Shown here in pieces: positions 17,163 through 59,303 of a DNA stretch of 59,313 nt. Within the stretch, counting starts at the first letter, position 1. Each line of letters begins with the position of its first letter. Both the position numbers and the translations under genes were made by a program. The stretch comes from Modestobacter excelsi (GTDB lineage: Bacteria; Actinomycetota; Actinomycetes; Mycobacteriales; Geodermatophilaceae), in NCBI RefSeq assembly GCF_005930495.1, contig NZ_SJEX01000020.1, positions 1 to 59,313 on the forward strand. The letters are read 5' to 3'. The notes beneath the pieces are model-generated. The model was given only the letters and a program-made list of their open reading frames with translations. It had not been told where the DNA came from and ran no database searches.

Positions 17163-17218
17163 GGACCCCGCTGCCCCCCATCGCTCGCAGGCTCGCGGCG
17201 GGCCCCCGCAGCGGGGCC
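17163..17218 (+). repeat. stop-proximal hairpin element, copy A
   Basis: Starts 4 nt after the tsaC stop. Outer arms CCCCGCTGC (17166-17174) and GCAGCGGGG (17208-17216) pair perfectly. The inside carries the family core CCCC-A-TCGCTCGC-AG-GCTCGCGGCGGG. See copies at 29171, 29885, 36404, 51143, 54494 and 59250. Confidence 0.8.
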
Positions 17219-17236
17219 GGGGACGAGTACGGACCC

Positions 17237-17357
17237 GCGGTGCGAAGCACCGCTGTGCGAGGGTGGCGCGGGCCCGGAGGGTCCCGCCGTCATCGCACGA
17301 AGCGGCTCAGCGTGAGCCGGGAACGGCAATTGGCCGCGGTGCGGTCCGGAGGACCGC
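17237..17357 (+). other. three short hairpins upstream of glyA
   Basis: Three perfect 7-bp stems with 3-nt loops occur in the tsaC-glyA gap: GCGGTGC/GCACCGC (17237-17253), CGGCTCA/TGAGCCG (17303-17319) and GCGGTCC/GGACCGC (17341-17357). TACCGT at 17371-17376 could be a -10. No match to a riboswitch class that I can recognise. Confidence 0.4.
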
Positions 17358-17450
17358 CGTGTCAGAGCGATACCGTGGTGCGACAGCCGCGCACCCGTCC
17401 AGTCCCGGCGCGCGCGGGTACCCGCACCGAGCCGCAGGAGTGCACCTCTG

Positions 17451-18758
17451 ATGAGCACCCCCGCCACCACCCCGTACTGGGGGCCCGACTTCGAGGCCCT
17501 CACGGCGTTCGACCCGGAGATCTCCGGCGTCGTCGTGGACGAGCTCGACCGGCTCCGCAACGGCCTGCAGCTCATCGCGAGCGAGAACTTCACCAGCCCG
17601 GCGGTGCTCGCCGCGCTGGGCAGCACGCTGTCGAACAAGTACGCCGAGGGCTACCCCGGTCGCCGGTACTACGGCGGGTGCGAGGTCGTCGACCGCGCGG
17701 AGGAGCTGGGGATCGCCCGGGCCAAGGAGCTCTTCGGCGCCGAGCACGCCAACCTGCAGCCGCACTCCGGGGCGAGCGCGAACCTGGCCGCTTACGGCGC
17801 CTTCCTGCAGCCCGGCGACACCCTGCTGGGCATGGCGCTGCCGCACGGCGGGCACCTGACCCACGGCACCAAGGTCTCCTTCTCCGGCAAGTGGTTCAAC
17901 GCCGTGCAGTACGGGGTCGACCCGGAGACCGAGCACATCGACTACGGCCAGGTCCGCGACCTGGCCCGCGAGCACCGCCCCAAGCTGATCATCGCCGGTG
18001 GTTCGGCGATCCCGCGGCTGATCGACTTCGCCGCGTTCCGGGAGATCGCCGACGAGGTCGGCGCCGTCTTCATGGTCGACGCGGCGCACTTCATCGGCCT
18101 GGTCGCCGGGAAGGCGATCCCCTCGCCGGTGCCCTACGCCGACGTCGTCACCTTCACCACGCACAAGGTGCTGCGCGGCCCCCGCGGCGGCGCGATCGTC
18201 TGCAAGGCCGAGCACGCCAAGGCCATCGACAAGTCCGCGTTCCCGATGATGCAGGGCGGACCGCTCATGCACGCCATCGCGGCCAAGGCGGTGAACCTCA
18301 AGGAGTGCCTGCAGCCGGAGTACCAGGTCTACGCCCGGCAGGTCGTCACCAACGCCCAGGCGCTCACCGAGGGCCTCGCCGCCGAGGGGCTGCGCCCGGT
18401 CGCCGGCGGCACGGACACCCACCTGGCGCTGCTCGACCTGCGCGAGGTCACCGACACCGCCGGTGAGCCGGTCACCGGCAAGGTGGCCGAGGCCCGCTGC
18501 GACGCCGCCGGCATCGTGCTGAACAAGAACGCGATCCCGTTCGACCCGCAGCCGGCGTCGGTCGCCTCCGGCATCCGGGTCGGCAGCCCGTCGGTCACGA
18601 CGCAGGGGATGGTCGAGAGCGACATGAAGACGATCGCCTCGCTGATCGGCACCGCGATCCGGGACGCCGAAGGCGCCCGCACCGCCGAGGTCGCCGCGGG
18701 TGTCCGCGAGCTGGTCGCCGCCCATCCCGCGTACCCCGAGCCCACCCGGACCGTCTGA
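17451..18758 (+). CDS. glyA: serine hydroxymethyltransferase
   Basis: PLP enzyme that interconverts serine plus tetrahydrofolate with glycine plus 5,10-methylene-THF; 435 residues. The PLP lysine is K239 in [12 protein letters not shown], and [22 protein letters not shown] and NLQPHSGA are conserved. The usual VDMAH(F/I)AGL reads VDAAHFIGL here, a variant I take to be a subtype difference and not inactivation. It lies between tsaC and the sugar-phosphate transferase, a common actinobacterial order. The ATG is preceded by GCAGGAG. Confidence 0.95.
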
Positions 18759-18762
18759 CCCC

Positions 18763-20034
18763 ATGCGCGAGTACGCCGTCGTCCTCCTCGTTGCGGCGCT
18801 GGTCACCTTCCTGGCCACGCCGGTCGTCCGGGTGGCGGCGGTCCGGTTCCGGGTGATGGCCGAGGTCCGCGACCGGGACGTGCACGTCATCCCCACCCCC
18901 CGCGGCGGGGGAGTGGCGATGTACCTCGGGGTCGCGGCCGGGGTGCTGGTGGCCTCGCAGCTGCCCTCGCTGCAGCGCAGCTTCGAGTTCAGCACCCAGA
19001 CCATCGCCGTCCTGGCCGCGGGCGGGCTGATCTGCCTGCTCGGTGTGCTCGACGACCGGTTCGGCCTGGACGCGCTGACCAAGCTGACCGGTCAGATCGC
19101 CGCAGCCGGGGTGATGGTGCTGCTCGGCGTCCAGCTGGCGTTCCTGTTCCTGCCGGTCGCCGACATCGGCACCCTGTCGCTGGGGCCGGACGTCGGCGTG
19201 CCGGCCACCATCCTGCTCACCGTGTTCACGGTGAACGCGCTGAACTTCATCGACGGCCTGGACGGCCTGGCCGCGGGGGTCTCCGCGATCGCCGCGCTGG
19301 CCTTCTTCGCCTACAGCTACCACCTGGGGCTGGTCGGCTACGACGACGTCGCGAGCGCCCCTGCGCTGATCACCGCCGTGCTCGCCGGCGCCTGCCTGGG
19401 CTTCCTGCCGCACAACTTCAGCCCGGCCCGGATCTTCATGGGCGACTCCGGGTCGATGCTGGTGGGGCTCATGCTGTCGGCGGCTGCAGTCTCGGCGACC
19501 GGCCAGACCGACTCCCAGACGCTCGGGTCGGCGGCGAACCTGCTGCCGTTGACCCTGCCGCTGCTGGTGCCGTTCGCCGTCCTCTTCATCCCGTTCATCG
19601 ACCTGGTCATGGCCGTCGTCCGGCGGACCCGGCGGGGCCAGTCGCCGTTCAGCCCGGACAAGCTGCACCTGCACCACCGGCTGCTGTCGATCGGGCACTC
19701 GCACCGCCGGGCGGTGCTGATCATGTACTTCTGGGCCGCGCTGCTCAGCTTCGGCGCCGTCGCCCTGTCCATCACCGGGGGGACCGTCGAGGTGCTCGTC
19801 ATCGTCGGCGCCCTGCTCGTGGTCGGGGTCGTGGTCGTGCTCAGCCCGCGGGCCCGTCGCGCCGCGATCGCGGCGCGGGAGGCCGAGCTGGCTGCCCTCA
19901 AGGAGCGCAGCCGGGCTGCGCACCCGGCCAGCCGGACCCCCCGCGGCGGACCTGCGGCCCCCACCGTCCCGGTCCCCGCGCCCTCGGGCCCGGGGCCGCT
20001 GCCGACCAGCAGGACGGCGGGGGTGCGGCGATGA
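18763..20034 (+). CDS. wecA: undecaprenyl-phosphate GlcNAc-1-phosphate transferase (WecA/MraY superfamily)
   Basis: Polytopic membrane enzyme of 423 residues that transfers a sugar-1-phosphate to a polyprenyl phosphate lipid carrier. Conserved motifs: LDDRFGLD, NFIDGLDG (161-168), MGDSGSMLVG and the HLHHRLL His loop. In actinobacteria the gene at this locus (rfe/wecA) starts arabinogalactan or wall-polymer linkage-unit synthesis; the precise sugar is inferred. About 10-11 hydrophobic helices precede a basic, Pro-rich cytoplasmic tail (about 365-423). ATG 18763 lies 4 bp after the glyA stop. The stop overlaps the next ATG (ATGA). Confidence 0.9.
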   Translation: MREYAVVLLVAALVTFLATPVVRVAAVRFRVMAEVRDRDVHVIPTPRGGGVAMYLGVAAGVLVASQLPSLQRSFEFSTQTIAVLAAGGLICLLGVLDDRFGLDALTKLTGQIAAAGVMVLLGVQLAFLFLPVADIGTLSLGPDVGVPATILLTVFTVNALNFIDGLDGLAAGVSAIAALAFFAYSYHLGLVGYDDVASAPALITAVLAGACLGFLPHNFSPARIFMGDSGSMLVGLMLSAAAVSATGQTDSQTLGSAANLLPLTLPLLVPFAVLFIPFIDLVMAVVRRTRRGQSPFSPDKLHLHHRLLSIGHSHRRAVLIMYFWAALLSFGAVALSITGGTVEVLVIVGALLVVGVVVVLSPRARRAAIAAREAELAALKERSRAAHPASRTPRGGPAAPTVPVPAPSGPGPLPTSRTAGVRR

Positions 20035-20492
20035 GCGCGTCGGACGCCCAGCGCGCGCAGCCGCGGAGCCAGGCGCCGTGGGACCTGTCCTTCCTGCGCG
20101 TGGGGGCACTGGTCGCCCTCGCCGTGACCGTCGTCGCCGTGCCGGTCACGGGTCTGCTGGCCGGGTGGCCCGAGGCCGTGGGCGTGCTGTCCGGCGCCGC
20201 GGTCGTGACGGCCTTCTTCTGCGTCTCCGGCCTGGTCATCGCCTGGGCCGGGAAGATCGACGACACGTACACCCTGCCGGCCGCCCTCGGCACGTTCGGG
20301 GTCAAGGCCCTGCTGCTGTTCGCGTTGCTCAACGCGCTCCCGGAGGACGGGTGGCTCGACCGACGCGCGCTGGCCTGGGCGGTCATCGTCGGGGCGCTGC
20401 TGTGGAGCGTGGTCCAACTCCGCTGGGTCTGGACCCGGCAGCTGTACTACGTCACCCCGCCGCCCCCTCCCGGCCACGGCACAGCGAACTGA
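20031..20492 (+). CDS. AtpI-like membrane protein
   Basis: A 153-residue protein with four predicted membrane helices (about 22-43, 49-71, 84-101 and 114-130) and polar, Pro-rich ends. Sequence alone gives little, but its position just before the ATP synthase genes and its topology fit the subunit-I/AtpI-like proteins that assist c-ring assembly or Mg2+ supply in other bacteria. Its ATG overlaps the preceding stop (ATGA), so it is translationally coupled to wecA. Confidence 0.65.
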   Translation: MSASDAQRAQPRSQAPWDLSFLRVGALVALAVTVVAVPVTGLLAGWPEAVGVLSGAAVVTAFFCVSGLVIAWAGKIDDTYTLPAALGTFGVKALLLFALLNALPEDGWLDRRALAWAVIVGALLWSVVQLRWVWTRQLYYVTPPPPPGHGTAN

Positions 20493-20539
20493 CAGGGCGG
20501 AAGGCGGAAGTGCCGGAAATCCGCCGGACACGCGGCTGA

Positions 20540-20545
20540 TAGGGT
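20540..20545 (+). promoter_or_regulatory. -10 TAGGGT, probable ATP synthase operon promoter
   Basis: TAGGGT ends 8 nt before ATG 20554, a leaderless geometry. It may drive the atp genes independently of wecA. No convincing -35. Confidence 0.5.
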
Positions 20546-20553
20546 CCGATCCG

Positions 20554-20898
20554 ATGGCCGAGGACACTCCCACCCCTGGGGGCGCCCGACCACGACCTGC
20601 GAGTCCAGCCCGTCAGCCCAGCGGTAGCGGGGCCGACACCGGCTGGGCGGTCACCGGGACGATGATCTCCGGCATGGCCGTGTGGGGCGGGGCCGGGTGG
20701 TTGCTCGACCGCTGGCTGGACATCACGGTGTTCTTCCCGGTCGGCATCATCTTCGGCATGGCAGTGGCCATCTACCTGGTGGTCAAGAGGTACGGCGCCG
20801 CCGACCCGCTCCCGGGTCAGCGGACGACGAAGACCTCGGGCGGACGACGGAGCCGACCCGGGACAGGAACGACAAGGACGCAGAAGGGACAACGGTGA
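20554..20898 (+). CDS. AtpZ/AtpI family protein
   Basis: A 114-residue protein. A Pro/Gly-rich N-terminus precedes two membrane helices (about 33-51 and 58-78) with the family pattern GGAGWLLDRWLDITVFFPVG and AVAIYLVVKRYG. A basic tail follows. AtpZ-type proteins are small accessory factors of F-type ATP synthase operons, implicated in c-ring assembly or cation supply. The TGA overlaps the atpB GTG (GTGA), so it is coupled to the a subunit. Confidence 0.75.
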   Translation: MAEDTPTPGGARPRPASPARQPSGSGADTGWAVTGTMISGMAVWGGAGWLLDRWLDITVFFPVGIIFGMAVAIYLVVKRYGAADPLPGQRTTKTSGGRRSRPGTGTTRTQKGQR

Positions 20899-21713
20899 CC
20901 TCCAGCGCCCTCGCGCTCGGCGACGTGCTCGCCGCTAACGGCGAAGGCTTCGAAGCCCCGGGCCTCGGCGAGTTCTACCCCGAGGTGATCGCCAACTTCT
21001 CGGTGCTCGGGGTGGACTTCGAGATCACCCGGATCACGCTGATCCTCTGGATCGCGACCCTGGCCCTCGTCGCCTTCCTCTACCTCGCCTCGCGGAACGC
21101 CAAGATCGTCCCGGGCAAGCTCCAGTTCGTCGGCGAGACCGGCTACTCGCTGGTCCGGGACGGCATCGCCCGCGACGTGGTCGGTCCGCGCGGGCTGCCC
21201 TTCGCGCCGTTCCTCGCCTCGCTGTTCTTCTTCATCCTGGCGAACAACCTGATGGCGATCATCCCGTTGGCGCAGATCTCGCCGATGAGCAAGTTCGCCT
21301 TCCCGCTGGTGCTCGCCGCCATCTGCTGGGTGCTCTACATCTACATCGGCATCCGGGAGCAGGGCGCCGGCCGCTACTTCAAGGACATCCTGTTCCTGCC
21401 GGGCGTGCCCAAGCCGATGTACATCCTGGTCACGCCGATCGAGATCCTGCAGAACTTCGTCGTCCGGCCGTTCACCCTGGCCGTCCGGCTCTTCGCGAAC
21501 ATGTTCGCCGGCCACATGCTGCTGGTGGTGTTCTCCCTGGGCGCGGTCTACCTCTTCCAGGTCGGCAACTACTCGGTCGTCTTCGGGCCGGTCTCGGCGC
21601 TGATGGCGATCGTGATGACCTTCTTCGAGCTGCTGGTCATCTTCCTGCAGGCCTACGTCTTCACCGTGCTGATGGGCACCTACCTCAACGGGTCCATCGA
21701 GGCCGAGCACTGA
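20895..21713 (+). CDS. atpB: ATP synthase Fo subunit a
   Basis: Membrane stator subunit carrying the proton half-channels; 272 residues. The essential Arg is R198 in TLAVRLFANMFAGH. Helical segments include LFFFILANNLMAIIP and the C-terminal FELLVIFLQAYVFTVLMGTYL. The GTG at 20895 overlaps the preceding stop. It is followed by atpE, as in other actinobacterial operons. Confidence 0.96.
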   Translation: MTSSALALGDVLAANGEGFEAPGLGEFYPEVIANFSVLGVDFEITRITLILWIATLALVAFLYLASRNAKIVPGKLQFVGETGYSLVRDGIARDVVGPRGLPFAPFLASLFFFILANNLMAIIPLAQISPMSKFAFPLVLAAICWVLYIYIGIREQGAGRYFKDILFLPGVPKPMYILVTPIEILQNFVVRPFTLAVRLFANMFAGHMLLVVFSLGAVYLFQVGNYSVVFGPVSALMAIVMTFFELLVIFLQAYVFTVLMGTYLNGSIEAEH

Positions 21714-21804
21714 TCCGCACGACCACCTGAACCGCACCACCCCGCACGATCCCGCCAGCCGCCCGGAACGATCCGGGCGACCGACACAGGAGGAACACCC
21801 CGCA

Positions 21805-22032
21805 ATGGACGTTCTGGCAGAACTGACCGGCAGCATCGGCTCGGTCGGTTACGGCCTCGCCGCGATCGGCCCCGGCATCGGTGTCGGCATCGTGTGGGCG
21901 GCCTACATCCAGGCCACCGCCCGGCAGCCCGAGTCGGCCGGCCTGACCCGGACCTACGCGTTCCTCGGGTTCGCGCTCTCCGAGGCGCTGGCGCTGATCG
22001 GCTTCGTCGTCCCCTTCGTCTTCGGCACCTGA
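21805..22032 (+). CDS. atpE: ATP synthase Fo subunit c
   Basis: A 75-residue hairpin proteolipid of the rotor ring. Helix 1 has the glycine stripe GPGIGVGIV, the polar loop is ARQPE and helix 2 carries the proton-binding E60 in ALSEALALIGF. The absence of a sodium-binding signature suggests H+ coupling. An AGGAGGA site lies about 10 nt upstream of the ATG, the strongest Shine-Dalgarno sequence in the cluster, consistent with the need for many copies. Confidence 0.97.
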   Translation: MDVLAELTGSIGSVGYGLAAIGPGIGVGIVWAAYIQATARQPESAGLTRTYAFLGFALSEALALIGFVVPFVFGT

Positions 22033-22066
22033 TCCCGCTCCCCCGAGCGCGGATCCCGACACCTGG

Positions 22067-22660
22067 ATGGTGGACACCATGCTGATCTGGGCAGCTGAGG
22101 AAGAGCACAACCCGCTCCTCCCGCCCCTGGGCGAGATCATCATCGGCCTGATCGCCTTCGCGATCGTGCTGTTCGTGATGTTCAAGTTCGTCGCCCCGCA
22201 GTTCGAGAAGGCCTTCGTCGCACGTCGCGACGCGATCGAGGGCGGCATCGAGCGGGCCGAGGCCATGCAGGCCGAGGCGAAGGCGGCGCTGGAGCAGTAC
22301 CGCGCCCAGCTCGCCGAGGCGCGCACCGAGGCGGCGCAGATCCGCGACGCAGCGCGTGCCGAGGGGCAGCAGATCATCGAGGAGCTCCGCGCCCAGGCGC
22401 AGGAGGAGTCGGCCCGCATCCTCGCCCGTGGCGAAGAGCAGCTGGCCTCGTCCCGGCAGCAGGTGGTCAACGAGCTGCGCGGCCAGATCGGGACCCTCGC
22501 GGTCGACCTGGCCGGCCGGGTGGTCGGCGAGTCCCTGGCCGACGACGCCCGCCGCAGCGGGACCGTCGACCGGTTCCTCGACGACCTCGACGGCATGACC
22601 GCGGCCAGCAGCGACGGCCGTGGGGGCAGCTCGGTCTACGTCCCGCAGGACGCCCGCTGA
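22067..22660 (+). CDS. atpF: ATP synthase Fo subunit b
   Basis: Peripheral stalk subunit of 197 residues. One N-terminal membrane helix (about 21-45) is followed by a long Ala/Glu/Arg-rich amphipathic helix that dimerises and reaches F1. Unlike mycobacteria, b and delta are separate here. ATG 22067 is given; an in-frame ATG at 22079 (MLIWAAEEE) is an equally plausible start. The stop overlaps the atpH ATG (TGATG). Confidence 0.94.
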   Translation: MVDTMLIWAAEEEHNPLLPPLGEIIIGLIAFAIVLFVMFKFVAPQFEKAFVARRDAIEGGIERAEAMQAEAKAALEQYRAQLAEARTEAAQIRDAARAEGQQIIEELRAQAQEESARILARGEEQLASSRQQVVNELRGQIGTLAVDLAGRVVGESLADDARRSGTVDRFLDDLDGMTAASSDGRGGSSVYVPQDAR

Positions 22661-23490
22661 TGCACGCGTCGAGCCGGGCGGCCCTCGAGGCGTCGCGGGA
22701 GGCGCTGCAGGCGCAGACCGGTGGCGCCCGCAGCCGCACCCGCGGGGAGGCACTGCTGGCGCTGGCCGACGAGCTGTTCGCCGTGGCGCACCTGCTCGAC
22801 GGTCAGCTCTCCCTGCGCCGGGCCCTGTCCGACGCGTCGGTCCGGCCCGACGACCGGGCCGGGCTGGCCCGGCGCCTGTTCTCCGGCAAGGTGGGTGAGG
22901 CGACGCTGGACGTCGTCGCGACCGTGGCCCGGCAGCGCTGGTCGCGCCCGCTGGACCTCGTCGAGGCGACCGAGACCCTGGCGACGGAGGCGGCGCTGGA
23001 CGCCGCCGACGCGCGGGGCGAGCTGGCCGACGTCGAGGACGAGCTCTTCCGGTTCAGCCGGATCGTGGCAGGCGACGACGACCTGGCCCGGATCCTCGGG
23101 AACCGGTCGGCGCCCCGTGAGGGCAAGACCGCGCTGCTGGACCGGCTGCTGTCCGGGAAGGTCAGCCCGGTCACCGAGCGGCTCGTGCGGAACGCATTGA
23201 CGAGTTCGCACGTGCACAGTGCGGAGAACGAGATCGAGCGGTTGTCCACCGCGGCGGCCCGCCGGCGGGGTCAGTCCGTCGCGCACGTGATCAGCGCGGT
23301 CCCCCTGTCGGGTGCGCAGGAGCAGCGTCTGGTCGACGTGCTCGAGCGCATCTACGGGAGGACCATGGGCCTGCAGGTCCAGGTCGACCCCGAGGTGCTC
23401 GGAGGTCTCGTCATCCGGGTCGACGACGAGGTCATCGACGGCTCGATCGCCCACCGACTCGAGGCCGCCGGCCGGCGGCTGGCCGGCTGA
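22660..23490 (+). CDS. atpH: ATP synthase F1 subunit delta
   Basis: The OSCP-like subunit that joins F1 to the b stalk; 276 residues. It is longer than the ~180-residue E. coli delta because of an N-terminal extension typical of actinobacteria. The C-terminal part contains the family block [20 protein letters not shown]. Its ATG overlaps the atpF stop. Confidence 0.93.
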
Positions 23491-23555
23491 CCCCGGCCGC
23501 ACCGACCGACCGACCGCTCACCACAGACACACCAGCAGAAGAGGACGCGAGAGCC

Positions 23556-25193
<1,638 letters not shown>

Positions 25194-25195
25194 GC

Positions 25196-26155
25196 ATGGC
25201 CGGTTCCCTCCGCGCGCTGCGGCGCCGCATCCGCTCCACCCAGTCGACGAAGAAGATCTTCTCGGCCCAGGAGCTGATCGCCGGTGCCCGCATCGTGCGC
25301 GCCCAGAACCGGGTGGCGGCCTCGAAGCCCTACGCCCGGGAGATCACCCGGGTGCTGTCCGCGCTCGCCGGCTCGGCGAGCCTGGACCACCCGCTGCTCA
25401 CCGAGCGCCCCGACGCCCGGCGGGTGGCGGTCCTGGTGATCACCTCCGACCGGGGCTTCGCGGGCTCCTACAACGTCAACGTCCTGCGCCGCACCGAGGA
25501 GCTGCTCGGCCTGCTGCGCCAGGAGGGCAAGGAGCCGGTGCTCTACGTCGTCGGCCGGAAGGGGGAGACCTACTACCGGTTCCGCGACCGTGAGTTCGCG
25601 GAGTCCTGGACCGGTTTCTCCGAGCAGCCCAACTACACCGACGCCCAGGAGGTCGGCCGCACGCTCATCGACGCCTTCACCGCTGGTGAGGACGACGACG
25701 AGGGCGGCGCGGGCGCCGACGGCATCCTCGGCGTGGACGAGCTGCACATCGTGTTCACCGAGTTCCGCTCGCTGCTCTCGCAGGTCCCCGTGGCCAACCG
25801 GATGGCTCCGCTGGTCGTCGAGGAGGTCGAGGAGTTCCGCGACGAGCAGGACGGCTCGGGGCGCACCAGCGAGATCCCGACCTCCTACGAGTTCGAGCCG
25901 TCGGCCGAGGCGCTGCTGGACGCGCTGCTGCCGAAGTACGTCACCACCCGCATCTACGCGGCGATGCTCGAGGCGGCTGCCTCGGAGTCGGCCTCGCGGC
26001 GGCGGGCGATGAAGTCGGCGTCGGACAACGCCGAGGAACTGGCGAAGAACCTCGCCCGGCAGGCCAACCAGGCCCGGCAGGCGGAGATCACCCAGGAGAT
26101 CAGCGAGATCGTCGGCGGTGCCGACGCGCTGGTGTCCGCAGGCAGCGACGACTGA
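25196..26155 (+). CDS. atpG: ATP synthase F1 subunit gamma
   Basis: Central rotor shaft; 319 residues. The N-terminal helix begins [19 protein letters not shown] and the C-terminal helix ends [12 protein letters not shown]. It is about 30 residues longer than the E. coli protein, with an acidic Gly-rich insertion ([12 protein letters not shown], about 164-175) where mycobacterial gamma also has an extra loop, and a second acidic stretch near 215-235. It follows atpA by 2 bp. Confidence 0.95.
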
Positions 26156-26181
26156 GCCGCAGCACGCACCACCGAGCACGG

Positions 26182-26214
26182 CCCCGGTCGCGGCGGCAAC
26201 CGCCGCGGCCGGGG
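26182..26214 (+). terminator. 15-bp hairpin between atpG and atpD
   Basis: Positions 26182-26196 pair with 26200-26214 (one U-G pair) around a CAA loop, 26 bp after atpG. As it lies inside the operon, it is more likely a partial terminator or a stabiliser/processing site that adjusts subunit ratios. Confidence 0.5.
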
Positions 26215-26221
26215 ACACTGA

Positions 26222-27709
<1,488 letters not shown>

Positions 27710-27726
27710 CGAAGCACCTCCTCGTC

Positions 27727-27758
27727 CGGCCGGGCACCCCTCATGGGGTGCCCGGCCG
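27727..27758 (+). terminator. strong terminator after atpD
   Basis: Perfect 14-bp stem (27727-27740 with 27745-27758), 4-nt TCAT loop, then TTCTCGTCT. The best intrinsic-terminator candidate in the window, and it separates atpD from atpC. Confidence 0.85.
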
Positions 27759-27946
27759 TTCTCGTCTCCGGACCCCGGGCGGGCCGGTCGACGGCTCTTG
27801 AGCGTGCGGGTCCGGGCACAGGCCGTCCCGAACCGCCATCCCTTCGGGTGGTGGCGGGCTGCCGGGAGCCCACTCCGGCCGCGGAGCGGCCGATCATGCT
27901 CCCAGTGCGTCCGAGCAGCGGACGCCCCGTCCGGGAGCAAGGGCGC

Positions 27947-28183
27947 GTGCACAAGTGGGGCCTCGCAGCGGCGCTGCGACCGAACGGGACGCCGCCGGCG
28001 GTGCCGTCCCCTCGGGAGGCCACCCTGCCGCAGGACGCACTCGAGTGGAGCTGGCCGCCCTACGCGCCGGTCGAAACCGATGACGAGTCGTTCGACACCG
28101 AGGAGTGGGCCCCGTCGTCGGTGGTCTCGCACCCGCGGCTCCGGGTGGGTCGCTGGACGCTGCTGTACCGCCGGTCCGCCTGA
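27947..28183 (+). CDS. hypothetical small protein between atpD and atpC
   Basis: An unrecognised 78-residue ORF with the codon signature of a real gene: third-position G+C is about 90%. It starts at GTG 27947 behind GGGAGCAAGG; an in-frame GTG at 27905 with GATCAT 7 nt upstream is an alternative. The product is Trp-rich (WGL, EWSW, EEWAPS, GRWTLLY) with an acidic middle (ETDDESFDTEEW) and a basic end (YRRSA). It has no membrane helix or signal peptide. It lies in the 629-bp gap between the beta and epsilon subunits; 27759-27946 and 28184-28245 hold nothing else I can identify. Confidence 0.55.
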   Translation: MHKWGLAAALRPNGTPPAVPSPREATLPQDALEWSWPPYAPVETDDESFDTEEWAPSSVVSHPRLRVGRWTLLYRRSA

Positions 28184-28245
28184 TCGAGGACCCCACGGCC
28201 GCACGGGACCGCCGGGCTGCGGGGCGGCCTGCTCCGACCCGCCGC

Positions 28246-28251
28246 TAGAGT
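28246..28251 (+). promoter_or_regulatory. -10 TAGAGT upstream of atpC
   Basis: TAGAGT lies 87 nt before the atpC GTG, downstream of the atpD terminator, so atpC may be transcribed from its own promoter. No clear -35. Confidence 0.4.
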
Positions 28252-28338
28252 GGGTGCAGATCCGTCGCCGCGTCCGTCCGGACCGGCGGCCCCGCACTGC
28301 CGGCCTGACCGCCGGCCGGTGGAACCCCGAGGAGTGTC

Positions 28339-28728
28339 GTGGCGACCCTGCAGGTCGAGCTCGTGGCCGTGGAGAAGATGATCTGGTCCGGAGAGGCCAC
28401 CATGGTCATCGCCCGCACGACCGAGGGTGAGCTCGGTGTCCTGCCAGGTCACGCTCCGCTGCTCGGGGAGCTCGCGCCCGGCGGCGTCGTGCGGATCCGT
28501 CCCGAGTCGGGGGACGACCTCGTCGTCGCGGCGCACGGCGGCTTCCTCTCCGTCACCGAGCGGGGCGTCTCGATCCTCGCCGAGACCGCGGAGATCTCCA
28601 CCGACATCGACGTGGAGCGCGCTCGGGAGGCACTCCGCCGGGCCGAGCAGGACGGCGACGACCCCGACGCCCTGGCCGCCGCCCGCCGCGCGCAGTCCCG
28701 GCTCCGCGCTGCCGGTCAGGACGCCTGA
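28339..28728 (+). CDS. atpC: ATP synthase F1 subunit epsilon
   Basis: Rotor and regulatory subunit; 129 residues. The N-terminal beta-sandwich contains GELGVLPGHAPLLGEL and GGFLSV; the C-terminal helical hairpin is DVERAREALRRAE. GTG 28339 follows GAGGAG. It is cut off from atpD by a terminator and a small ORF. Confidence 0.95.
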   Translation: MATLQVELVAVEKMIWSGEATMVIARTTEGELGVLPGHAPLLGELAPGGVVRIRPESGDDLVVAAHGGFLSVTERGVSILAETAEISTDIDVERAREALRRAEQDGDDPDALAAARRAQSRLRAAGQDA

Positions 28729-28764
28729 GCCCAGCACCTCGCTCCCGCCGACAGCACCCTCCCG

Positions 28765-29169: not shown

Positions 29170-29170
29170 A

Positions 29171-29226
29171 GGACCCTCGTGCCCCCCACCGCTCGCACGC
29201 TCGCGTCGGGGCCCTGCACGAGGGCC
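29171..29226 (+). repeat. stop-proximal hairpin element, copy B
   Basis: Starts 1 nt after the DUF2550 stop. Arms CCCTCGTGC (29174-29182) and GCACGAGGG (29216-29224) pair perfectly, and both arms differ from copy A in a compensating way. It lies in the convergent gap before the adenosyltransferase and may act as a terminator. Confidence 0.8.
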
Positions 29227-29251
29227 GTTCCAGACTGACGGTGCGTCGTCG

Positions 29252-29866: not shown

Positions 29867-29872
29867 GGCCCG

Positions 29873-29878
29873 AGCGTA
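29873..29878 (-). promoter_or_regulatory. -10 TACGCT, leaderless adenosyltransferase
   Basis: Reverse-strand TACGCT ends 6 nt before ATG 29866. Confidence 0.55.
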
Positions 29879-29884
29879 GGAGAC

Positions 29885-29939
29885 GGACCCTGCTGCCCCC
29901 AACCTCTCCGCGCTCGCGGTCGGGCCCTGCCGGCGGGCC
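29885..29939 (+). repeat. hairpin element, degenerate copy C
   Basis: Shares the family core (GGACCCTGCTGCCCCC... GCTCGCGGTCGGGCCCTG) but its 3' arm no longer pairs well. It is the only copy not next to a stop codon, lying between the divergent adenosyltransferase and murA promoters. Confidence 0.6.
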
Positions 29940-29943
29940 ACCG

Positions 29944-29949
29944 TAGGGT
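29944..29949 (+). promoter_or_regulatory. -10 TAGGGT, leaderless murA
   Basis: TAGGGT ends 7 nt before GTG 29957. No ribosome-binding site is visible. Confidence 0.6.
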
Positions 29950-29956
29950 GGGTGCC

Positions 29957-35730: not shown

Positions 35731-36402
35731 GTGCGTCTGGTCATCGCCCGCTGCTCCGTGGACTACATCGGACGGCTCACCGCTCATCTCCCGCTCGCCA
35801 CCCGGCTGCTGCTGGTCAAGGCCGACGGCTCGGTGTCCGTCCACGCCGACGACCGGGCCTACAAGCCGCTGAACTGGATGAGCCCGCCGTGCTCCCTCAC
35901 CGACGAGCTGGTGGACGGGGCGGGCACCTGGACGGTGACCAACAAGGCCGGTGAGCAGCTGGTCATCACCATCGAGTCGGTGGAGCACGACCACCGGCAC
36001 GAGCTGGGCGTGGACCCCGGCCTGCAGAAGGACGGCGTGGAGGCCGAGCTGCAGCGGCTGCTGGCCCTGCACGTGGAGACCTTCGGCGAGGGCTGGTCGC
36101 TGGTGCGCCGGGAGTTCCCGACCGCGATCGGCCCGGTCGACCTGCTCTGCCGGGACGCCGCGGGCACCACGGTGGCCGTGGAGATCAAGCGCCGCGGCGA
36201 GATCGACGGCGTCGAGCAGCTGACGAGGTACCTCGAGCTGCTCAACCGCGACCCGCTGCTCGCCCCGGTCAAGGGCGTGTTCGCCGCGCAGGAGATCAAG
36301 CCGCAGGCCCGGGTGCTCGCCCAGGACCGCGGCATCGACTGCGTCACCGTCGACTACGCCGTCCTCAAGGGCACCGACGACCCCTCGGCCCGCCTCTTCT
36401 GA
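35731..36402 (+). CDS. nucS: mismatch-specific endonuclease NucS/EndoMS
   Basis: A 223-residue RecB-like nuclease that makes double-strand cuts at mismatches. In actinobacteria it replaces MutS/MutL mismatch repair. The nuclease triad D137 (GPVDLL), E151 and K153 (VAVEIKR) is intact. The C-terminus ends SARLF, matching the short clamp-binding tail known for NucS proteins. The DNA-binding N-domain starts [16 protein letters not shown]. Confidence 0.95.
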
Positions 36403-36403
36403 C

Positions 36404-36438
36404 GGAGGGCGCTCCTGCCCCCACCCTGCAGCAGGGCC
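36404..36438 (+). repeat. hairpin element, short copy D
   Basis: Starts 1 nt after the nucS stop. It keeps the outer parts (GGAGGGCGCTCCTGCCCCCACC and GCAGCAGGGCC) but lacks the central GCTCGC segment; a deletion derivative. Confidence 0.55.
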
Positions 36439-45303: not shown

Positions 45304-45310
45304 CGAGGTC

Positions 45311-46282: not shown

Positions 46283-46294
46283 CGCCGCCGCCAG

Positions 46295-46375
46295 TGATCA
46301 GGTGACCTGATCAGAGGCCGTCCTCCCTCACCAGCGTTGGTGCGGGACGACGCCCTTCGATCAGGTCACCTGATC
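46295..46375. repeat. paired GATCAGGT-N-ACCTGATC palindromes in a convergent gap
   Basis: TGATCAGGTGACCTGATCA (46295-46313) and GATCAGGTCACCTGATC (46359-46375) are near-perfect palindromes with opposite central base, so they are also inverted copies of each other. Between them CACCA-GCGT-TGGTG forms another hairpin within flanking GTCC...GGAC pairing. The whole structure sits between two convergent genes and is a likely bidirectional terminator. Confidence 0.65.
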
Positions 46376-46400
46376 CACGGTGGAGGGCCGGGGCAGTTCG

Positions 46401-47834
46401 TCAGGCGCTGATGTCGCAGGCGGGGAGGCCCTGGAAGACGCCGCTGCGGAAGACGTCGACCAGCTGGAAGCCGGTCAGGCCGCTGTCGGCCAGCACCTCC
46501 GGGTCGTCGCTGTACTCGAGCAGGAACGACACGCTCTCGTCGGCGTCACCGGGGGAGATCTGCAGCACCGTGCTCTGGCCGTTGAGCACCCCGGCGGTGA
46601 ACGCACCGGCCAGGCACACCGCTGACCGGACGGCGTCCTGACCGTCGGTGGACAGGCCCAGCTGGTCGCGCACGGCGAGCCCGTACGGGATCGCGATGGC
46701 GGTCAGCACCGCGTAGTCCCCGCCCTGCTCGTCGGCGTACAGCGGCTCGGTCAGGTCGGTCTCGTCGTAGCCCACCGTGTCGGTGGCGGCGCAGTAGACC
46801 AGGTCGGTGTCCGGCTGCTCGCCGTCGCACTCGGGGGCCTGCCCGTCGAAGCCGGCGAGGGTGGGGGCGGTGAAGGTCTTGCCCTGCTGGTCCACCGCGG
46901 TGGTGAAGAACTCGGCCAGGCCCTCGGTGGCGAACTGGCCCACGGTCTGGTCGTAGGGGGCGTCGCCGCCGGTGGCGAGGTCCTGGTCGCTGAACTCGCC
47001 CTGGGTGTAGGGGCGGTCCTGGCCGAAGGCGTCCCGGCACGCGGGAGGGCCGTCGTCGAACCCCTGCTGGAACGCCGACACCCGGTCGAAGTAGGAGCCG
47101 TGCGCCTCGCCGGAGTTCCGGCCGGTGCCCACCGGGTCCCGCAGCAGCAGGTAGCCGCGCAGCACGTCGTCGAGCTCGCCCGGGCGGATGGTGTTGTGCG
47201 GGGCGTCGCCGTCGGCGACCCACTTGGTCCAGGCCCCGGCGAAGCAGTCGGCCTGGGTCTCGATCGCGATCGACGCCTGGATCGGGTAGCCGACCCTGCC
47301 CTGCACCGCGTGGCCGAACTCGTGCGCCATCACCAGCGCCGGGATGAACCGGCCGTAGCCCCCGCTGCCGCCGCTGCCGAAGGCGAGCTCGCCGAGGAAC
47401 GCACGGTCGTACTGGATCGCGTCGCCGTTGGGGTAGGTGTTGCTGGCGTCGCAGTAGAAGGCGTTGTCCTGCACCGCCTCCGGCGGCTCGCCGCAGCCGA
47501 TCTGCCCGTTGGGGTACTGCGCCGGGTCGACGTCGGCCGGGTCGACCGAGAAGTAGCCGCCGGCGAGCGGGGTGAACTCCTGGTCGAAGGTGCCCGGGAA
47601 CTGCTCGGCCCAGTAGGTGTTCAGGTCCAGCAGGGCGTTGCGGGCGATCTGGTCGATGTCGTCGTCGGTCGCGCCGATGATCTGGAACTGCTGGGGGTCG
47701 ACGTCGTCGCGGACCCCGGAGGCGGGGGTCGCGTGGCCGTCGACGAGGGTGACGGCGCAGCTGGTCAGCACGGTCGAGCCCAGCAGGGCGCCCACGACGG
47801 CACGGAGGAGCACCCGGCGGGGCGAGGAGGACAT
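46401..47834 (-). CDS. neutral zinc metallopeptidase, lipoprotein
   Basis: A 477-residue exported lipoprotein. The signal sequence ends in lipobox LTSC with C26 as the lipidated residue. The zinc site is HEFGH (171-175) in VMAHEFGHAVQGRVGYP, with a third ligand probably in ETQADCFAGAW. This resembles the YpfJ/neutral-metallopeptidase family in actinobacteria. Multiple Cys pairs in the mature part may form disulfides. The ATG is preceded by GGGAGC. Confidence 0.88.
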   Translation of the reverse strand: MSSSPRRVLLRAVVGALLGSTVLTSCAVTLVDGHATPASGVRDDVDPQQFQIIGATDDDIDQIARNALLDLNTYWAEQFPGTFDQEFTPLAGGYFSVDPADVDPAQYPNGQIGCGEPPEAVQDNAFYCDASNTYPNGDAIQYDRAFLGELAFGSGGSGGYGRFIPALVMAHEFGHAVQGRVGYPIQASIAIETQADCFAGAWTKWVADGDAPHNTIRPGELDDVLRGYLLLRDPVGTGRNSGEAHGSYFDRVSAFQQGFDDGPPACRDAFGQDRPYTQGEFSDQDLATGGDAPYDQTVGQFATEGLAEFFTTAVDQQGKTFTAPTLAGFDGQAPECDGEQPDTDLVYCAATDTVGYDETDLTEPLYADEQGGDYAVLTAIAIPYGLAVRDQLGLSTDGQDAVRSAVCLAGAFTAGVLNGQSTVLQISPGDADESVSFLLEYSDDPEVLADSGLTGFQLVDVFRSGVFQGLPACDISA

Positions 47835-47934
47835 GGGCTCCCGATCGGTCAGGCCGCCGGACCGGCAGCTGCGTCCCCATCCTGCCGGACCCGGTCGGGA
47901 CCGGCGACGCGTCGGTCGTGCGGGGTGGGGCGAG

Positions 47935-47979
47935 CGACGACGGCGGGGCGGGGGACCTGCCCCCGCCCCGCCGTCGTCG
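47935..47979 (-). terminator. perfect 20-bp hairpin after glgB
   Basis: Positions 47935-47954 pair without mismatch with 47960-47979 around a 5-nt loop, 16 bp downstream of the glgB stop. It ends the glgE-treS-mak-glgB transcript. Confidence 0.8.
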
Positions 47980-47995
47980 TGACCCGGGTGCTGCC

Positions 47996-51112
<3,117 letters not shown>

Positions 51113-51142
51113 GGGTTCCCTCCAGGTGCGTCGGTCTTGTCC

Positions 51143-51199
51143 GGCCTCTCTGCAGGGGCCCTCGCCGAGCGGAGCGAGGCGTGGGAGGCAGAGAGGTCC
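51143..51199 (-). repeat. stop-proximal hairpin element, copy E
   Basis: Reverse-strand copy starting 4 nt after the mak stop. Arms 51145-51153 and 51188-51196 (CCTCTCTGC/GCAGAGAGG) pair perfectly, and an inner CCTCGC/GCGAGG stem is also present. It lies inside the operon before glgB. Confidence 0.8.
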
Positions 51200-51203
51200 T
51201 TCT

Positions 51204-52576
51204 TCAGTCGCCGGAGGTCAACCGGGACAGCGAGCTGAGCGGGATCATGAGCCAGTGCGGCCGGTTGCGCGCCTCGTACACACACTCGTACACCGCCTTG
51301 TCGGCCTCGAACGCGCGCAGCAGCGCGGATTCGCTCGACAGTGTGAGGTCCGGGGCGGCGGCGGAGTAGCCCGCACAGAACGCGGTGCGGTTCCGCTCGG
51401 CCCACTCCTGCGCGCGGTAGGCGCGCTGCGGGTCACCCGGCTGCTCGACGAGCATGTGCCGGGCGGCGTAGTCGAAGGACCGCAGCATCCCGGCGACGTC
51501 GCGCAGCGGGGTGTCGTTCTCCCGGCGGGCCGCCAGCGGTCGGGCCGGCTCGCCCTCGAAGTCCAGCACGATCCAGCCGGTCGTCGTCCGCAGCACCTGG
51601 CCCAGGTGCAGGTCGCCGTGCACCCGCTGGCGGAGCACCGGCTCGTCGGTCCCGGCGACCGCGGCGTACAGCGTCCGCAGCGCGTCGGCGTGCTCGGCGA
51701 GGTCGGGGACGACGGCGAGCGCCGCATCCAGCCGCTCGGTCATCTGGGCGGCGACCGCGGCGTACCAGTCCCGGTCGGCCGGCTCGGTGGGCAGCACCCG
51801 GGCGAGGTCGGCGTGGACCGAGGCGGTGGCCTCGCCCAGTCGCTCGCTCTCCCCGGCGAAGTCGCCGCCCACCTCGTCGGCGTGCAGGTCGCCCTCGGCG
51901 TAGAGGTCGCGGACGCTGGAGGTGGCCAGCCGCCAGCCGTCGCTGGCGTTGGGCACGAAGGCCTGCAGCATCGCGACGGTGGCCGGCTGCTGGGCGGGGT
52001 CGGGGTCGTCGATCTCGATGTGCCCGAGCAGCGGGGCGATGTGCTTGTTCTCGGTGCGGCGCAGGGCGTCGAGGATCTCCACGTCGGGGTTGAGCCCCGG
52101 CTCGAGCCGGCGGAACAGCTTCAGGATCGCCGTCTCGCCGTAGACCAGCGAGGTGTTGCTCTGCTCGGTCGAGATCACGTCGCCGGGCAGGCCCTCGGGG
52201 ATGTAGGCGACCCCGGCGGGGTGGAAGTGCATCGGGCCGACGGTCGAGGCGGCCACCAGGTGGGTGAGCCACGGGACGGTCGCGTCGCGGTCGCGCATCG
52301 CGTCGTAGGCGTAGTTCTCACCGTGCGACCCCGGTACCGCGCCGACGAACGCCGCGGCGAGGTCCTCGGCCGGGGCGCTGCGCCAGGACAGCGGCACCAG
52401 GTAGGTCTCGGTGTGCCCGTCGGTGTACCCGACCCGGACCCGGTGCACGGACAGCGCGGGGTCGGACTGGTCGAGGAAGAAGCCGTCCTCGCTCACCGAC
52501 GCCCACTCGCGGCCCTTCCCGCCGAACCACCGCTGCCCGGGCATCCAGTCGGCCAGCATGTCGGTCAACGCACTCA

Positions 52577-52577
<1 letters not shown>
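51204..52577 (-). CDS. mak: maltokinase
   Basis: Phosphorylates maltose to maltose-1-phosphate with ATP (Pep2/Mak); 457 residues. The kinase-like core has [10 protein letters not shown] (catalytic loop) and VLDFEGEP (metal DFE). The N-terminal cap contains [13 protein letters not shown], typical of actinobacterial maltokinases. In some species it is fused to treS; here it is separate but its ATG overlaps the treS stop (ATGA), so the two are translationally coupled. Confidence 0.94.
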
Positions 52578-54439
<1,862 letters not shown>

Positions 54440-54493
54440 GGAGAGGGTTCCTCGTTCATAGGGCTGGGCACGTGCGCTGGGGCTTGGCGTCGT

Positions 54494-54548
54494 GGCCTGC
54501 TTGCAGGGGCCCGCCGCTGGCCTGCGAGCGGTGGGGGCGGGCAGGTCC
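54494..54548 (-). repeat. stop-proximal hairpin element, copy F
   Basis: Reverse-strand copy starting 4 nt after the glgE stop. Outer arms 54496-54504 and 54537-54545 pair at 7 of 9 positions. The inner stem CCGCT/AGCGG is perfect, and the loop keeps CGCAGG. It lies between glgE and treS inside the operon. Confidence 0.75.
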
Positions 54549-54552
54549 TCGT

Positions 54553-56559
<2,007 letters not shown>

Positions 56560-56566
56560 CGCGGCA

Positions 56567-56572
56567 ACGCTA
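56567..56572 (-). promoter_or_regulatory. -10 TAGCGT, leaderless glgE
   Basis: Reverse-strand TAGCGT ends 7 nt before ATG 56559. Together with the glgP promoter it forms a 135-bp divergent regulatory region. Confidence 0.6.
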
Positions 56573-56682
56573 TCCAGAAGGCCCCCAGCTCACACGTCGG
56601 CGGCGGTCCTGGTCGGCCGGGGGACCAGGACGGCCGCTGCGACCGCTGCCCGGAGGACCCTGTGCGTGAGCGCGGTCACGAT

Positions 56683-56688
56683 TATGGT
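56683..56688 (+). promoter_or_regulatory. -10 TATGGT, leaderless glgP
   Basis: TATGGT ends 6 nt before ATG 56695; no ribosome-binding site. Confidence 0.6.
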
Positions 56689-56694
56689 CAGCCG

Positions 56695-59244
56695 ATGCGA
56701 GCTCTCCGACGACTCACCGTCCGCGCCTCCCTGCCCGAGGCGCTGAGGCCGCTGTCGCAGCTGGTCATCAACCTGCGCTGGTCCTGGCACTGGGCGACCC
56801 GCGACCTCTTCGAGGCGCTCGACCCCGAGCTGTGGGCCAGCTGCGGAGGCGACCCGGTGAAGGTGCTCGGGGAGGTCTCCGCCGAGCGGCTGGCCACGCT
56901 GGCCGAGGACCAGGAGTTCCTGCGGCGCATGCACGCCGTCGCCGAGGACCTGCGCACCTACCTGGACGCCCCGCACTGGTACCAGTCGCTGGGTGCGGAG
57001 GCGCCGGCCTCGATCGCCTACTTCTCCGCGGAGTTCGGCATCACCGAGGTGCTCCCGCAGTACTCCGGCGGCCTGGGCATCCTGGCCGGCGACCACCTCA
57101 AGGCCGCCTCCGACCTCGGCGTCCCGCTGATCGGTGTCGGGCTGCTCTACCGGTCCGGCTACTTCTCGCAGAGCCTCTCGCCCGACGGGTGGCAGCTCGA
57201 GCACTACCCGGCGCTGGACCCGCACGGCCTGCCCCTGAAGCTGCTCCGGGAGCCCGACCGCACCGCGGTGGTCATCTCGGTGCCGCTGCCGGAGGGGCGC
57301 ACGCTGTACGCCCACGTGTACCGGGCCCAGGTCGGCCGGGTGTCGCTGCTGCTGCTCGACAGCGACATCGAGGAGAACGCCCCGGCCGAGCGCGGGGTCA
57401 CCGACCGGCTGTACGGCGGGGGAGAGGACCACCGGCTGCGGCAGGAGATGCTGCTGGGCATCGGTGGCGTCCGCGCCGTCCGGGCGTTCTGCTCGCTGAC
57501 CGGGACCCCGCAGCCCGAGGTGTTCCACGCCAACGAGGGCCACGCCGGCTTCCAGGGCGTCGAGCGGATCCGCGAGCTGACCGAGTCCCACGGGCTGTCC
57601 TTCGGTGAGGCGCTGCAGGCGGTGCGCGGCGGCACGGTGTTCACCACACACACCCCGGTGCCCGCCGGGATCGACCGGTTCCCCCGGGCGCTGATCGAGC
57701 GGTACTTCGCCGGCTTCGGGGTGCCGGTGGAGCAACTGCTCCCGCTGGGCGCCGAGGAGGACCCGAGCAAGTTCAACATGGCGCACATGGGCCTGCGGCT
57801 GGGCCAGCGCGCCAACGGGGTGAGCCAGCTGCACGGCCACGTCAGCCGGGACATGTTCGGCGCGCTGTGGCCGGGCTTCGACGCCGACGACGTGCCGATC
57901 AGCGCCATCACCAACGGCGTGCACGCCCCGACCTGGACCGCCCGCGAGCTGCTCGAGCTGGGCACCCAGACCACCAGCCAGGGCGACCCGGCGGCGGTCC
58001 AGGGCGAGGTGCACTTCGACGGCGTCGACCGGATCGACGCCGGCGAGCTGTGGAGCACCCGGCGGCTGCTGCGCGGGCGGCTGGTCGAGGAGGTCCGCCG
58101 CCGGGTCCGCGCCACCGCGCTGTCCCGCGGGGCGGCCGAGGCCGAGCTCGGCTGGACCGAGACCGCCTTCGACCCCGACGTGCTGACGATCGGCTTCGCC
58201 CGGCGGGTCCCCTCCTACAAGCGGTTGACGCTGATGCTCAAGGACCCGGCGCGGCTCAAGGCGCTGCTGCTGGACGACCAGCGGCCTATCCAGCTCGTCA
58301 TCGCCGGCAAGAGCCACCCCGCCGACGACGGCGGCAAGCAGCTCATCCAGCAGATGGTGAAGTTCGCCGACGACCCGGAGATCCGGCACCGGATCGCGTT
58401 CCTGCCCAACTACGACATCGGCATGGCGCGCTACCTGTACTGGGGCTGCGACGTCTGGCTGAACAACCCGCTGCGGCCGCTGGAGGCCTGCGGCACCTCG
58501 GGCATGAAGTCCGCCCTCAACGGCGGGCTGAACCTCTCCATCCGGGACGGCTGGTGGGACGAGTGGTTCGACGGCCAGAACGGCTGGGCCATCCCGACCG
58601 CCGACGGCGTGTCCGACCACGACCGGCGGGACGAGGTGGAGGCGCAGGCCATCTACGAGCTGCTCGACCGGCAGGTGCTCCCGCGCTTCTACGAGGTCGA
58701 CAGCGACGGCGTCCCGACCCGGTGGGTGGAGATGATCCGGGACACCCTGCGCGAGACCGGGCCGAAGGTGCAGGCCACCCGGATGGTGCGGGACTACGTG
58801 GAGCAGCTGTACGTGCCGGCCGCCGGTGCGGCGCGGGCCATGGCGGACGGCGGCTACGAGGCTGCGCGCAGCGAGGCGAGCTGGCGGTCGCACGTGCTGG
58901 AGAACTGGCACGGCGTGCGGGTGGCGCACGTGGAGGCGACCGGTGTGGGGGAGACCCCGGAGATCGGCGGTGGGATCGACCTGCGCGCCGAGGTGGAGCT
59001 GCCGGGGCTGACGCCGCACGACGTCCTCGTCGAGGCCGCGTTCGGGCGGGTCGACGACGCCGACGGGCTGCACCAGGTGACCACCGTCCCGATGGGGCAC
59101 GAGATCACCGAGGGGTCCCGGCACTGGTTCACCGCGACCGTGCCGCTGACCCGGACGGGCGCCTTCGGCTACACCGTGCGGGTGCTGCCGCACTCCCAGC
59201 ACGCGGCGGTACCGGCAGAGCTCGGTGTCGTGGTCAACGCGTGA
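56695..59244 (+). CDS. glgP: alpha-glucan (glycogen) phosphorylase
   Basis: Releases glucose-1-phosphate from alpha-glucan; 849 residues. The N-terminal DUF3417 segment (RWSWHWATRDLFEALDPELW) marks the actinobacterial/archaeal GT35 subtype. The PLP lysine is K605 in GTSGMKSALNGG; YFSAEFGI, YSGGLGILAGDHLKAASDLG and THTPVPAG are conserved. A C-terminal extra domain (about 745-849) is typical of this subtype. Divergent from the glgE operon, placing degradation opposite synthesis. Confidence 0.95.
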   Translation: MRALRRLTVRASLPEALRPLSQLVINLRWSWHWATRDLFEALDPELWASCGGDPVKVLGEVSAERLATLAEDQEFLRRMHAVAEDLRTYLDAPHWYQSLGAEAPASIAYFSAEFGITEVLPQYSGGLGILAGDHLKAASDLGVPLIGVGLLYRSGYFSQSLSPDGWQLEHYPALDPHGLPLKLLREPDRTAVVISVPLPEGRTLYAHVYRAQVGRVSLLLLDSDIEENAPAERGVTDRLYGGGEDHRLRQEMLLGIGGVRAVRAFCSLTGTPQPEVFHANEGHAGFQGVERIRELTESHGLSFGEALQAVRGGTVFTTHTPVPAGIDRFPRALIERYFAGFGVPVEQLLPLGAEEDPSKFNMAHMGLRLGQRANGVSQLHGHVSRDMFGALWPGFDADDVPISAITNGVHAPTWTARELLELGTQTTSQGDPAAVQGEVHFDGVDRIDAGELWSTRRLLRGRLVEEVRRRVRATALSRGAAEAELGWTETAFDPDVLTIGFARRVPSYKRLTLMLKDPARLKALLLDDQRPIQLVIAGKSHPADDGGKQLIQQMVKFADDPEIRHRIAFLPNYDIGMARYLYWGCDVWLNNPLRPLEACGTSGMKSALNGGLNLSIRDGWWDEWFDGQNGWAIPTADGVSDHDRRDEVEAQAIYELLDRQVLPRFYEVDSDGVPTRWVEMIRDTLRETGPKVQATRMVRDYVEQLYVPAAGAARAMADGGYEAARSEASWRSHVLENWHGVRVAHVEATGVGETPEIGGGIDLRAEVELPGLTPHDVLVEAAFGRVDDADGLHQVTTVPMGHEITEGSRHWFTATVPLTRTGAFGYTVRVLPHSQHAAVPAELGVVVNA

Positions 59245-59249
59245 TGGAG

Positions 59250-59303
59250 GGCCCCGCTGCCTCCACGCCTCGCGAGCTCGGCGCGGGCCCCTGCAGCGGG
59301 GCC
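59250..59303 (+). repeat. stop-proximal hairpin element, copy G
   Basis: Follows the glgP stop by 5 nt. Arms GGCCCCGCTGC (59250-59260) and GCAGCGGGGCC (59293-59303) pair over 11 bp. The inside contains CGCCTCGCGAGCTCGGCGCG. Runs almost to the window end. Confidence 0.8.

Follow-up and report, generated by a model that had tools for sequence, protein, structure and literature searches.

The 59,313-nucleotide (nt) contig NZ_SJEX01000020.1 of Modestobacter excelsi, called the window below since it is the whole stretch of DNA that was analysed, carries copies of a short hairpin element that is scattered over the genome. We regard this element, with a probability of roughly 0.6, as a palindromic DNA repeat that is dispersed in the genomes of one bacterial family and similar to the repetitive extragenic palindromic (REP) sequences. 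Such a repeat would change at the level of DNA and last at sites where a hairpin at the 3' end does no harm or brings some benefit. Its copies are placed directly behind stop codons and nearly restricted to the family Geodermatophilaceae, their number swings from genome to genome, and at orthologous gene ends they are found present, absent or decayed. Individual copies are locus-specific with arms changing in pairs, and two of them carry whole-stem self-complementations. No Rfam family matched the element at the gathering threshold (only a tRNA was matched in the window), in agreement with an earlier note made from the letters alone (the sequence-only reading), which knew no named family for it, and searches of the open-access literature on hairpins, palindromes or repeats of these genera turned up no description of it, a wider search on REPs leading to a paper on Bradyrhizobium.

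Read from the aligned copies, the hairpin element is 56 nt long, or about 76 nt with its tail. Its 5' boundary is GAAGGACC, which lies at the stop of the gene upstream and in the sense orientation of that gene; the GAA directly 5' of the element is conserved, and the commonest junction is TGA-N-GAA-GGACC. The 3' end is either bare (GGCC-G) or extended by a 16-nt tail, GTTCCAGCACGTCACC, which is complete in 69 of 396 distinct copies, missing or reduced to its first bases in 300 and intermediate in 27. A covariance model of 56 positions and 18 pairs, named R1, was built from the six aligned full copies of the window, which score 60-78 bits against it. In the genome searched (5.26 Mb, 178 contigs), R1 found at least 150 copies, the best 150 of 10582 candidates all being matches, with E-values from 4e-11 for the best to 0.017 for the weakest. 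An exact core pattern matched 113 times, and its reversed form 0 times; since the core is present in 105 of the 150 scored copies, the genome should hold about 160 copies if the rest are alike.

The covariance search of the whole genome with tabulation of stop distances, which the sequence-only reading had proposed, bears out the placement at stop codons. The element starts 0-10 nt after a sense-strand stop in 120 of the 150 copies, as compared to 4.0% expected for a random intergenic position and strand; nine lie further off and 21 have no such stop. The sense stops were taken from a simple codon-based gene caller, and a stricter caller gave 114 copies instead of 120. The spacing is 0-5 nt in 113 copies, being 4 nt in 66, 1 nt in 18, 2 nt in 13, 5 nt in 8, 0 nt in 6 and 3 nt in 2. 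A stop triplet (not coding-verified) precedes the element by 0-5 nt in 206 of 249 further copies, most of which come from relatives; 39 of 290 hits without clear ends were left out. An antisense stop lies 0-5 nt beyond the 3' end in 15 of the 150 copies, and only 4 are flagged within a called coding region, i.e., the element is extragenic. The gene that comes after the 120 stop-anchored copies is convergent in 55 cases, co-directional in 63 and undetermined in 2, which is an enrichment of convergent ends (55:63 against 200:402 for the gene ends of syntenic regions, p=0.006); in 22 of the 63 co-directional cases the called start is within about 60 nt. The stops beside the 120 copies are 99 TGA, 17 TAG and 4 TAA. 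TAG and TAA are commoner there (21/120, sense stop within 10 nt) than among the genes of the window (2/49; TGA 47, TAG 2). At a spacing of 0-2 nt the element's own GAA probably often completes the stop codon, judged from the junctions (TA+GAA, T+GAA, T+AA), and this would account for part of the surplus.

R1 detected the element in all 23 genomes of the genus and in 90 of 96 Geodermatophilaceae genomes, covering 9 of 11 genera (about 59 candidates scored per genome), and in 0 of 16 genomes from other families of the same order. Rich genera have poor members: G039 has no copy at E 1 and G067 has one at E 0.05, while G045, G055 and G104 have 7, 3 and 5 copies, respectively, at E 1. Across 393 genomes of the class, R1 matched three: beside the genome of the window these were G061, which belongs to the same family, and, weakly, G371 from a different one (E 5e-4). 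The matches listed under a genome name belong to Geodermatophilus, Blastococcus, Modestobacter, Trujillonella, Goekera, other Geodermatophilaceae and one 'Frankiales' metagenome-assembled genome; the copies of relatives are a biased sample, many having entered as best-scoring or exact-pattern hits. The core pattern also occurs in one genus of another family (8 matches in G118, 8 in G371, 1 in G485), where the reversed control gave 0. Six more genomes have one core match each, and the reversed control matched in ten genomes. In that genus (L423, L428 and L436; G118 and G371) the loop TCGCNNGCTC and the internal motif GGGNCCCT are kept and the outer arms are different, and at least three loci lie directly 3' of a TAG or TAA triplet (not coding-verified). 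By its sequence, this is a related hairpin family with the same loop core in another actinomycete family. Five loci from different genomes (L071, L263, L294, L328 and L349) have one row of neighbour genes in common, and the element therefore recurs at one conserved place across genera.

The history of single copies was followed in about 40 kb of syntenic DNA from 17 relatives (less for G006). After the 14 weakest of 83 syntenic hits had been dropped, 51 of the 69 kept hits, window included, begin within 10 nt of the stop of the homologous gene. The end of glgE is filled in nine genomes, with the arm CCTGCCTGC in six, a near variant in two and another arm in one; the end of nucS has one common version in six genomes; and at the end of g31274 the loop region is similar in four of five filled genomes and the arms differ. 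Other genomes are empty at the same ends or hold remnants and internal deletions. These filled, empty and decayed orthologous ends mean that copies are inherited, altered, decayed, gained or lost.

The two arms of the hairpin change together. In the six-copy alignment, standard pairs make up 92.5% of the paired cells, both-side changes occur at 6 pairs, and the covariation score was reached by 0 of 500 shuffles; perfect 9-bp arms were found in 246 of 391 copies. The statement in the sequence-only reading that the 9-bp arms stay paired is overstated for two copies, with two mismatches in the one at 54494 and three in the one at 29885. Its conclusion that paired covariation means a selected RNA fold is not supported in that form. 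Selection on the sense mRNA should tolerate G·U above A·C, and since A·C is in excess the covariation is weak proof: there are 48 A·C against 18 G·T mismatches in the 358 copies whose arms contain no more than two mismatches, and 41 against 15 in 129 distinct arm pairs (p=7e-4). The imbalance has this direction both in the genome of the window taken alone (p=0.04, G·T:A·C 5:15) and in the loci from elsewhere (p=0.008, 10:27); these p-values serve as guides because the copies are related. These counts left out 33 of 391 copies with more than two arm mismatches and 5 of 396 outside 50-60 nt. An A·C on the sense strand is a wobble pair when the antisense strand folds. G-to-A changes are not in excess at unpaired positions (2/504, against 65/2772 for C-to-T), although the loop G's are themselves conserved.

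Among 377 distinct elements, two stand out by uninterrupted perfect stems, of 19 and 22 bp, all others reaching at most 12 bp, and self-complemented arms were found on the 5' side in G006 and on the 3' side in L341 (Modestobacter sp. VKM Ac-2985). Self-complementation of a whole arm would require no selection on RNA and resembles DNA template switching, which can create 'compensatory' changes in one step, in hairpins enriched for CUUG loops, as described in PMC8794818. The antisense loop of the element is C(NN)G, being CTTG in 55 of 252, and this likeness to template-switch hairpins may serve as a lead. Other A·C counts were put aside: those at positions 18-37, considered as antisense wobble, fit independence when calculated by hand, and the excess in the inner stem (90 vs 7) was not used as a test because the subfamily CCAC/GCGG may cause most of it.

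Folds were compared between control gene ends and 13 gene ends at which at least one genome has the element, leaving out ends whose stop was over 60 nt beyond the homology and those with less than 80 nt of sequence. Element-less orthologous ends (n=125) have a mean fold z of -1.75, with 41% below -2, as compared to -0.86 and 20% for the control ends (n=272; p=5e-6, the orthologs not being independent), so a 3' hairpin role is still plausible. The element-bearing ends (n=50) have a mean z of -1.42, with 36% below -2. Among 15 genomes, the glgE-treS spacer holds the element in nine and a different hairpin in the other six (z from -2.87 to -6.35), and at the mak end 0 of 10 element-less genomes have a z below -2. 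A 3' hairpin seems to be wanted at some gene ends and optional at others. Of the roles suggested by the sequence-only reading, a terminator or a 3'-end stabiliser, the canonical intrinsic (Rho-independent) terminator is unlikely, as TTTT occurs within 15 nt downstream in 0 of 150 copies, and a 3' hairpin role remains plausible.

As described in PMC12306157, REPs are short, imperfect palindromes outside genes, usually transcribed, that occur in many similar copies and often right after stops; those of Escherichia coli are 14-40 nt long, and 260 of 496 lie within 15 nt of a stop and were proposed, in a study cited there, to act in translation. Under the broad definition given there, the element likewise is extragenic, forms a palindromic stem-loop and shares a common consensus among many copies. 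It is longer than the E. coli range of 14-40 nt, and it differs in its closeness to stops, which lie no more than 10 nt away for 80% of the 150 copies, in its single orientation and in its consensus. It also differs from the RAYT-associated REPs: a search of the 96 family genomes for the RAYT or Y1 transposase (PF01797) gave 0 positives, with the control positive in 5 of 14, and RAYT was rejected as the mobiliser. The mycobacterial interspersed repetitive units (MIRUs) are likewise dispersed, short, apparently mobile and gene-oriented actinobacterial repeats at translation signals; according to PMC12548453, the start codon is where MIRUs insert, and they contain an open reading frame coupled to the next gene, whereas the element is palindromic and anchored at the stop codon. 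Reverse transcriptase (PF00078) is present in 46 of 96 genomes with no association with the copies seen, as it was not found in the element-rich G091 and G098 and was found in the element-free G100 and G102. For the IS91-type Y2 transposase, 0 of 96 genomes were positive in a search whose control matched nowhere either. When 1497 neighbour proteins from 237 loci were clustered, the 25 largest clusters looked ordinary by eye (no family search was run) and no transposase was conspicuous. As for carriage by phages, two core patterns had 0 exact matches in viral contigs.

On the reading as a REP-like DNA repeat, the copies would spread and recombine as DNA through machinery other than RAYT, and the pairing of the arms may be kept in part by template-switch correction of the quasi-palindrome. 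Copies would survive at sites that can bear, or gain from, a transcribed 3' hairpin, e.g., as an RNase barrier, a partial or two-way roadblock or an intercistronic hairpin, and would not act as canonical U-tract terminators. Several points weigh against this reading. None of the above searches found a mobiliser and no clean new insertion with its empty site was caught at the orthologous ends, so mobility is deduced from the distribution; the locus-specific arms at glgE and nucS reflect long vertical inheritance. Just two self-complemented copies were found. The strict one-orientation placement at stop codons is equally expected from selection at the RNA level. Relative to shuffles, the element-bearing ends fold no better than the element-less state of the same sites (-1.42 vs -1.75), and the result at the mak end means that a hairpin is not needed there. 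A more specific and less likely proposal is an actinobacterial mobile DNA hairpin whose antisense strand is the folded and recognised form, and which a non-RAYT enzyme would put at stop codons in gene-sense orientation; its loop and internal motif would be common to two families with different outer arms.

The best-surviving rival, which we consider unlikely, is a sense-strand mRNA 3'-end element (an unusual terminator, an RNase barrier, a translation-termination hairpin or a protein tag) that was spread and kept by selection on the mRNA fold, in line with the sequence-only reading. Such a role fits the sense orientation and 0-5 nt spacing of 113 of 150 copies, the paired changes of the arms, the substitute hairpins at the same gene ends, foremost in the glgE-treS spacer, and the convergent enrichment. 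The mismatches, however, are the reverse of what sense-RNA selection should leave, a U-tract is present in no copy, some relatives such as G039 have no copy at all, and more than half of the stop-anchored copies precede a co-directional gene, 22 of them with a called start close by. Rho-independent terminators resemble the element as GC-rich hairpins right after stops that are enriched at convergent ends, but the element has no T-run in 150 copies, keeps to one 56-nt consensus in which the loop is conserved, and also occurs between co-directional genes of one row.

The excess of A·C, which equals G·U on the opposite strand, would also be expected from an RNA hairpin of the antisense strand that halts or blocks transcripts entering the 3' end of the gene from the opposite side, e.g., from a convergent gene, and 46% of the 120 stop-anchored copies do face a convergent gene. 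We consider this quite improbable, because the excess extends beyond convergent contexts (A·C:G·T 4:0 convergent and 10:4 co-directional, small numbers) and the T-richness of the 3' flank on the antisense strand (TTCNTCA) is slight. The better antisense fold of 354 of 362 distinct elements was rejected as evidence: it is an effect of composition, since 99% of 146 inner-shuffled elements still fold better antisense with a near-equal gap.

Of integron attC sites, it is the bottom strand that folds. A recombination site of this kind, folded as single-stranded DNA with the bottom strand as substrate, would be compatible with the A·C excess, and the element shares with attC an imperfect hairpin with a bulged base lying directly 3' of stop codons, together with its gene-sense orientation and a conserved loop. 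It is nevertheless a very remote candidate, as the known attC core sites are not visible, and the copies stand singly beside core genes with no cassette array seen. A chance likeness of GC-rich hairpins in a genome of 74% GC was dismissed on the counts of exact against reversed core matches, the E-values and the near-restriction to one family, even though shuffled copies fold well too and single window copies have fold z values from +0.7 to -3.1, above -1 in three of seven.

The window holds six full copies and one remnant, and all seven places named in the sequence-only reading contain what it described. Its remark that all but one copy lie near a sense stop is also correct: judged by homologous genes, five of the six full copies are at 1-4 nt, and so is the remnant. 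The copy at 17163..17218 (+ strand, 72.7 bits against R1) lies 4 nt 3' of the stop of a Sua5/YrdC gene (Pfam; stop ends at 17158). The copy at 29171..29226 (+, 77.5 bits) lies 1 nt 3' of the stop of a DUF2550 gene; its 3' tail begins GTTCCAG, and the end of a convergent gene follows 25 nt further on. The degenerate copy at 29885..29939 (+, 60.3 bits) is the exception, the sole full copy of the window with no called sense stop before it; it sits between divergent genes, about 8 nt ahead of the called start of the gene at 29948. The remnant at 36404..36438 (+, 19.4 bits, E 0.17) follows the nucS gene, whose stop ends at 36402, by 1-4 nt depending on the chosen start, and it was accepted despite its low score because 6 of 17 relatives have the full element at that gene end. 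Two copies sit within a gene row that comprises glgE, a treS-like gene and a maltokinase gene: 51143..51199 (-, 75.5 bits), 4 nt 3' of the stop of the maltokinase gene (51204-52568) and preceding the co-directional gene 47996-51112, and 54494..54548 (-, 67.5 bits), 4 nt 3' of the glgE stop (54553-56478) and preceding the treS-like gene 52577-54439. The last copy, at 59249..59303 (+, 68.3 bits), lies 4 nt 3' of the stop of a glycogen-phosphorylase-like gene (56695-59244).

Composite copies were also seen (L212, L130, L149, L313, L276 and G000:C151:9629), in which one element adjoins or lies within the 3' half of another, including tandem 3' halves linked through the GTTCCAGCACGTCACC tail. The sequences 3' of GGCC were looked at for target duplication, and a few TGA were seen by eye. 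A distinct palindromic unit, GATCAGGT(G/C)ACCTGATC, occurs at 46295 and 46359 in a convergent gene spacer of the window (46285-46386), flanking a second inverted repeat. It is also found in this spacer in G008, G012, G013 and G021, and the GGACC element is in its place in G004, G007, G009 and G010.

The paired arm changes also carry a caution, in that such changes in a repeated hairpin may stem from template switching in DNA and from copies exchanging sequence with each other, and are therefore no proof that an RNA is under selection. If the element is REP-like and lacks RAYT, it would call for another mobiliser. Ranging from zero to about 160 copies, the 96 family genomes form a natural experiment on how palindromic repeats reach stop codons.

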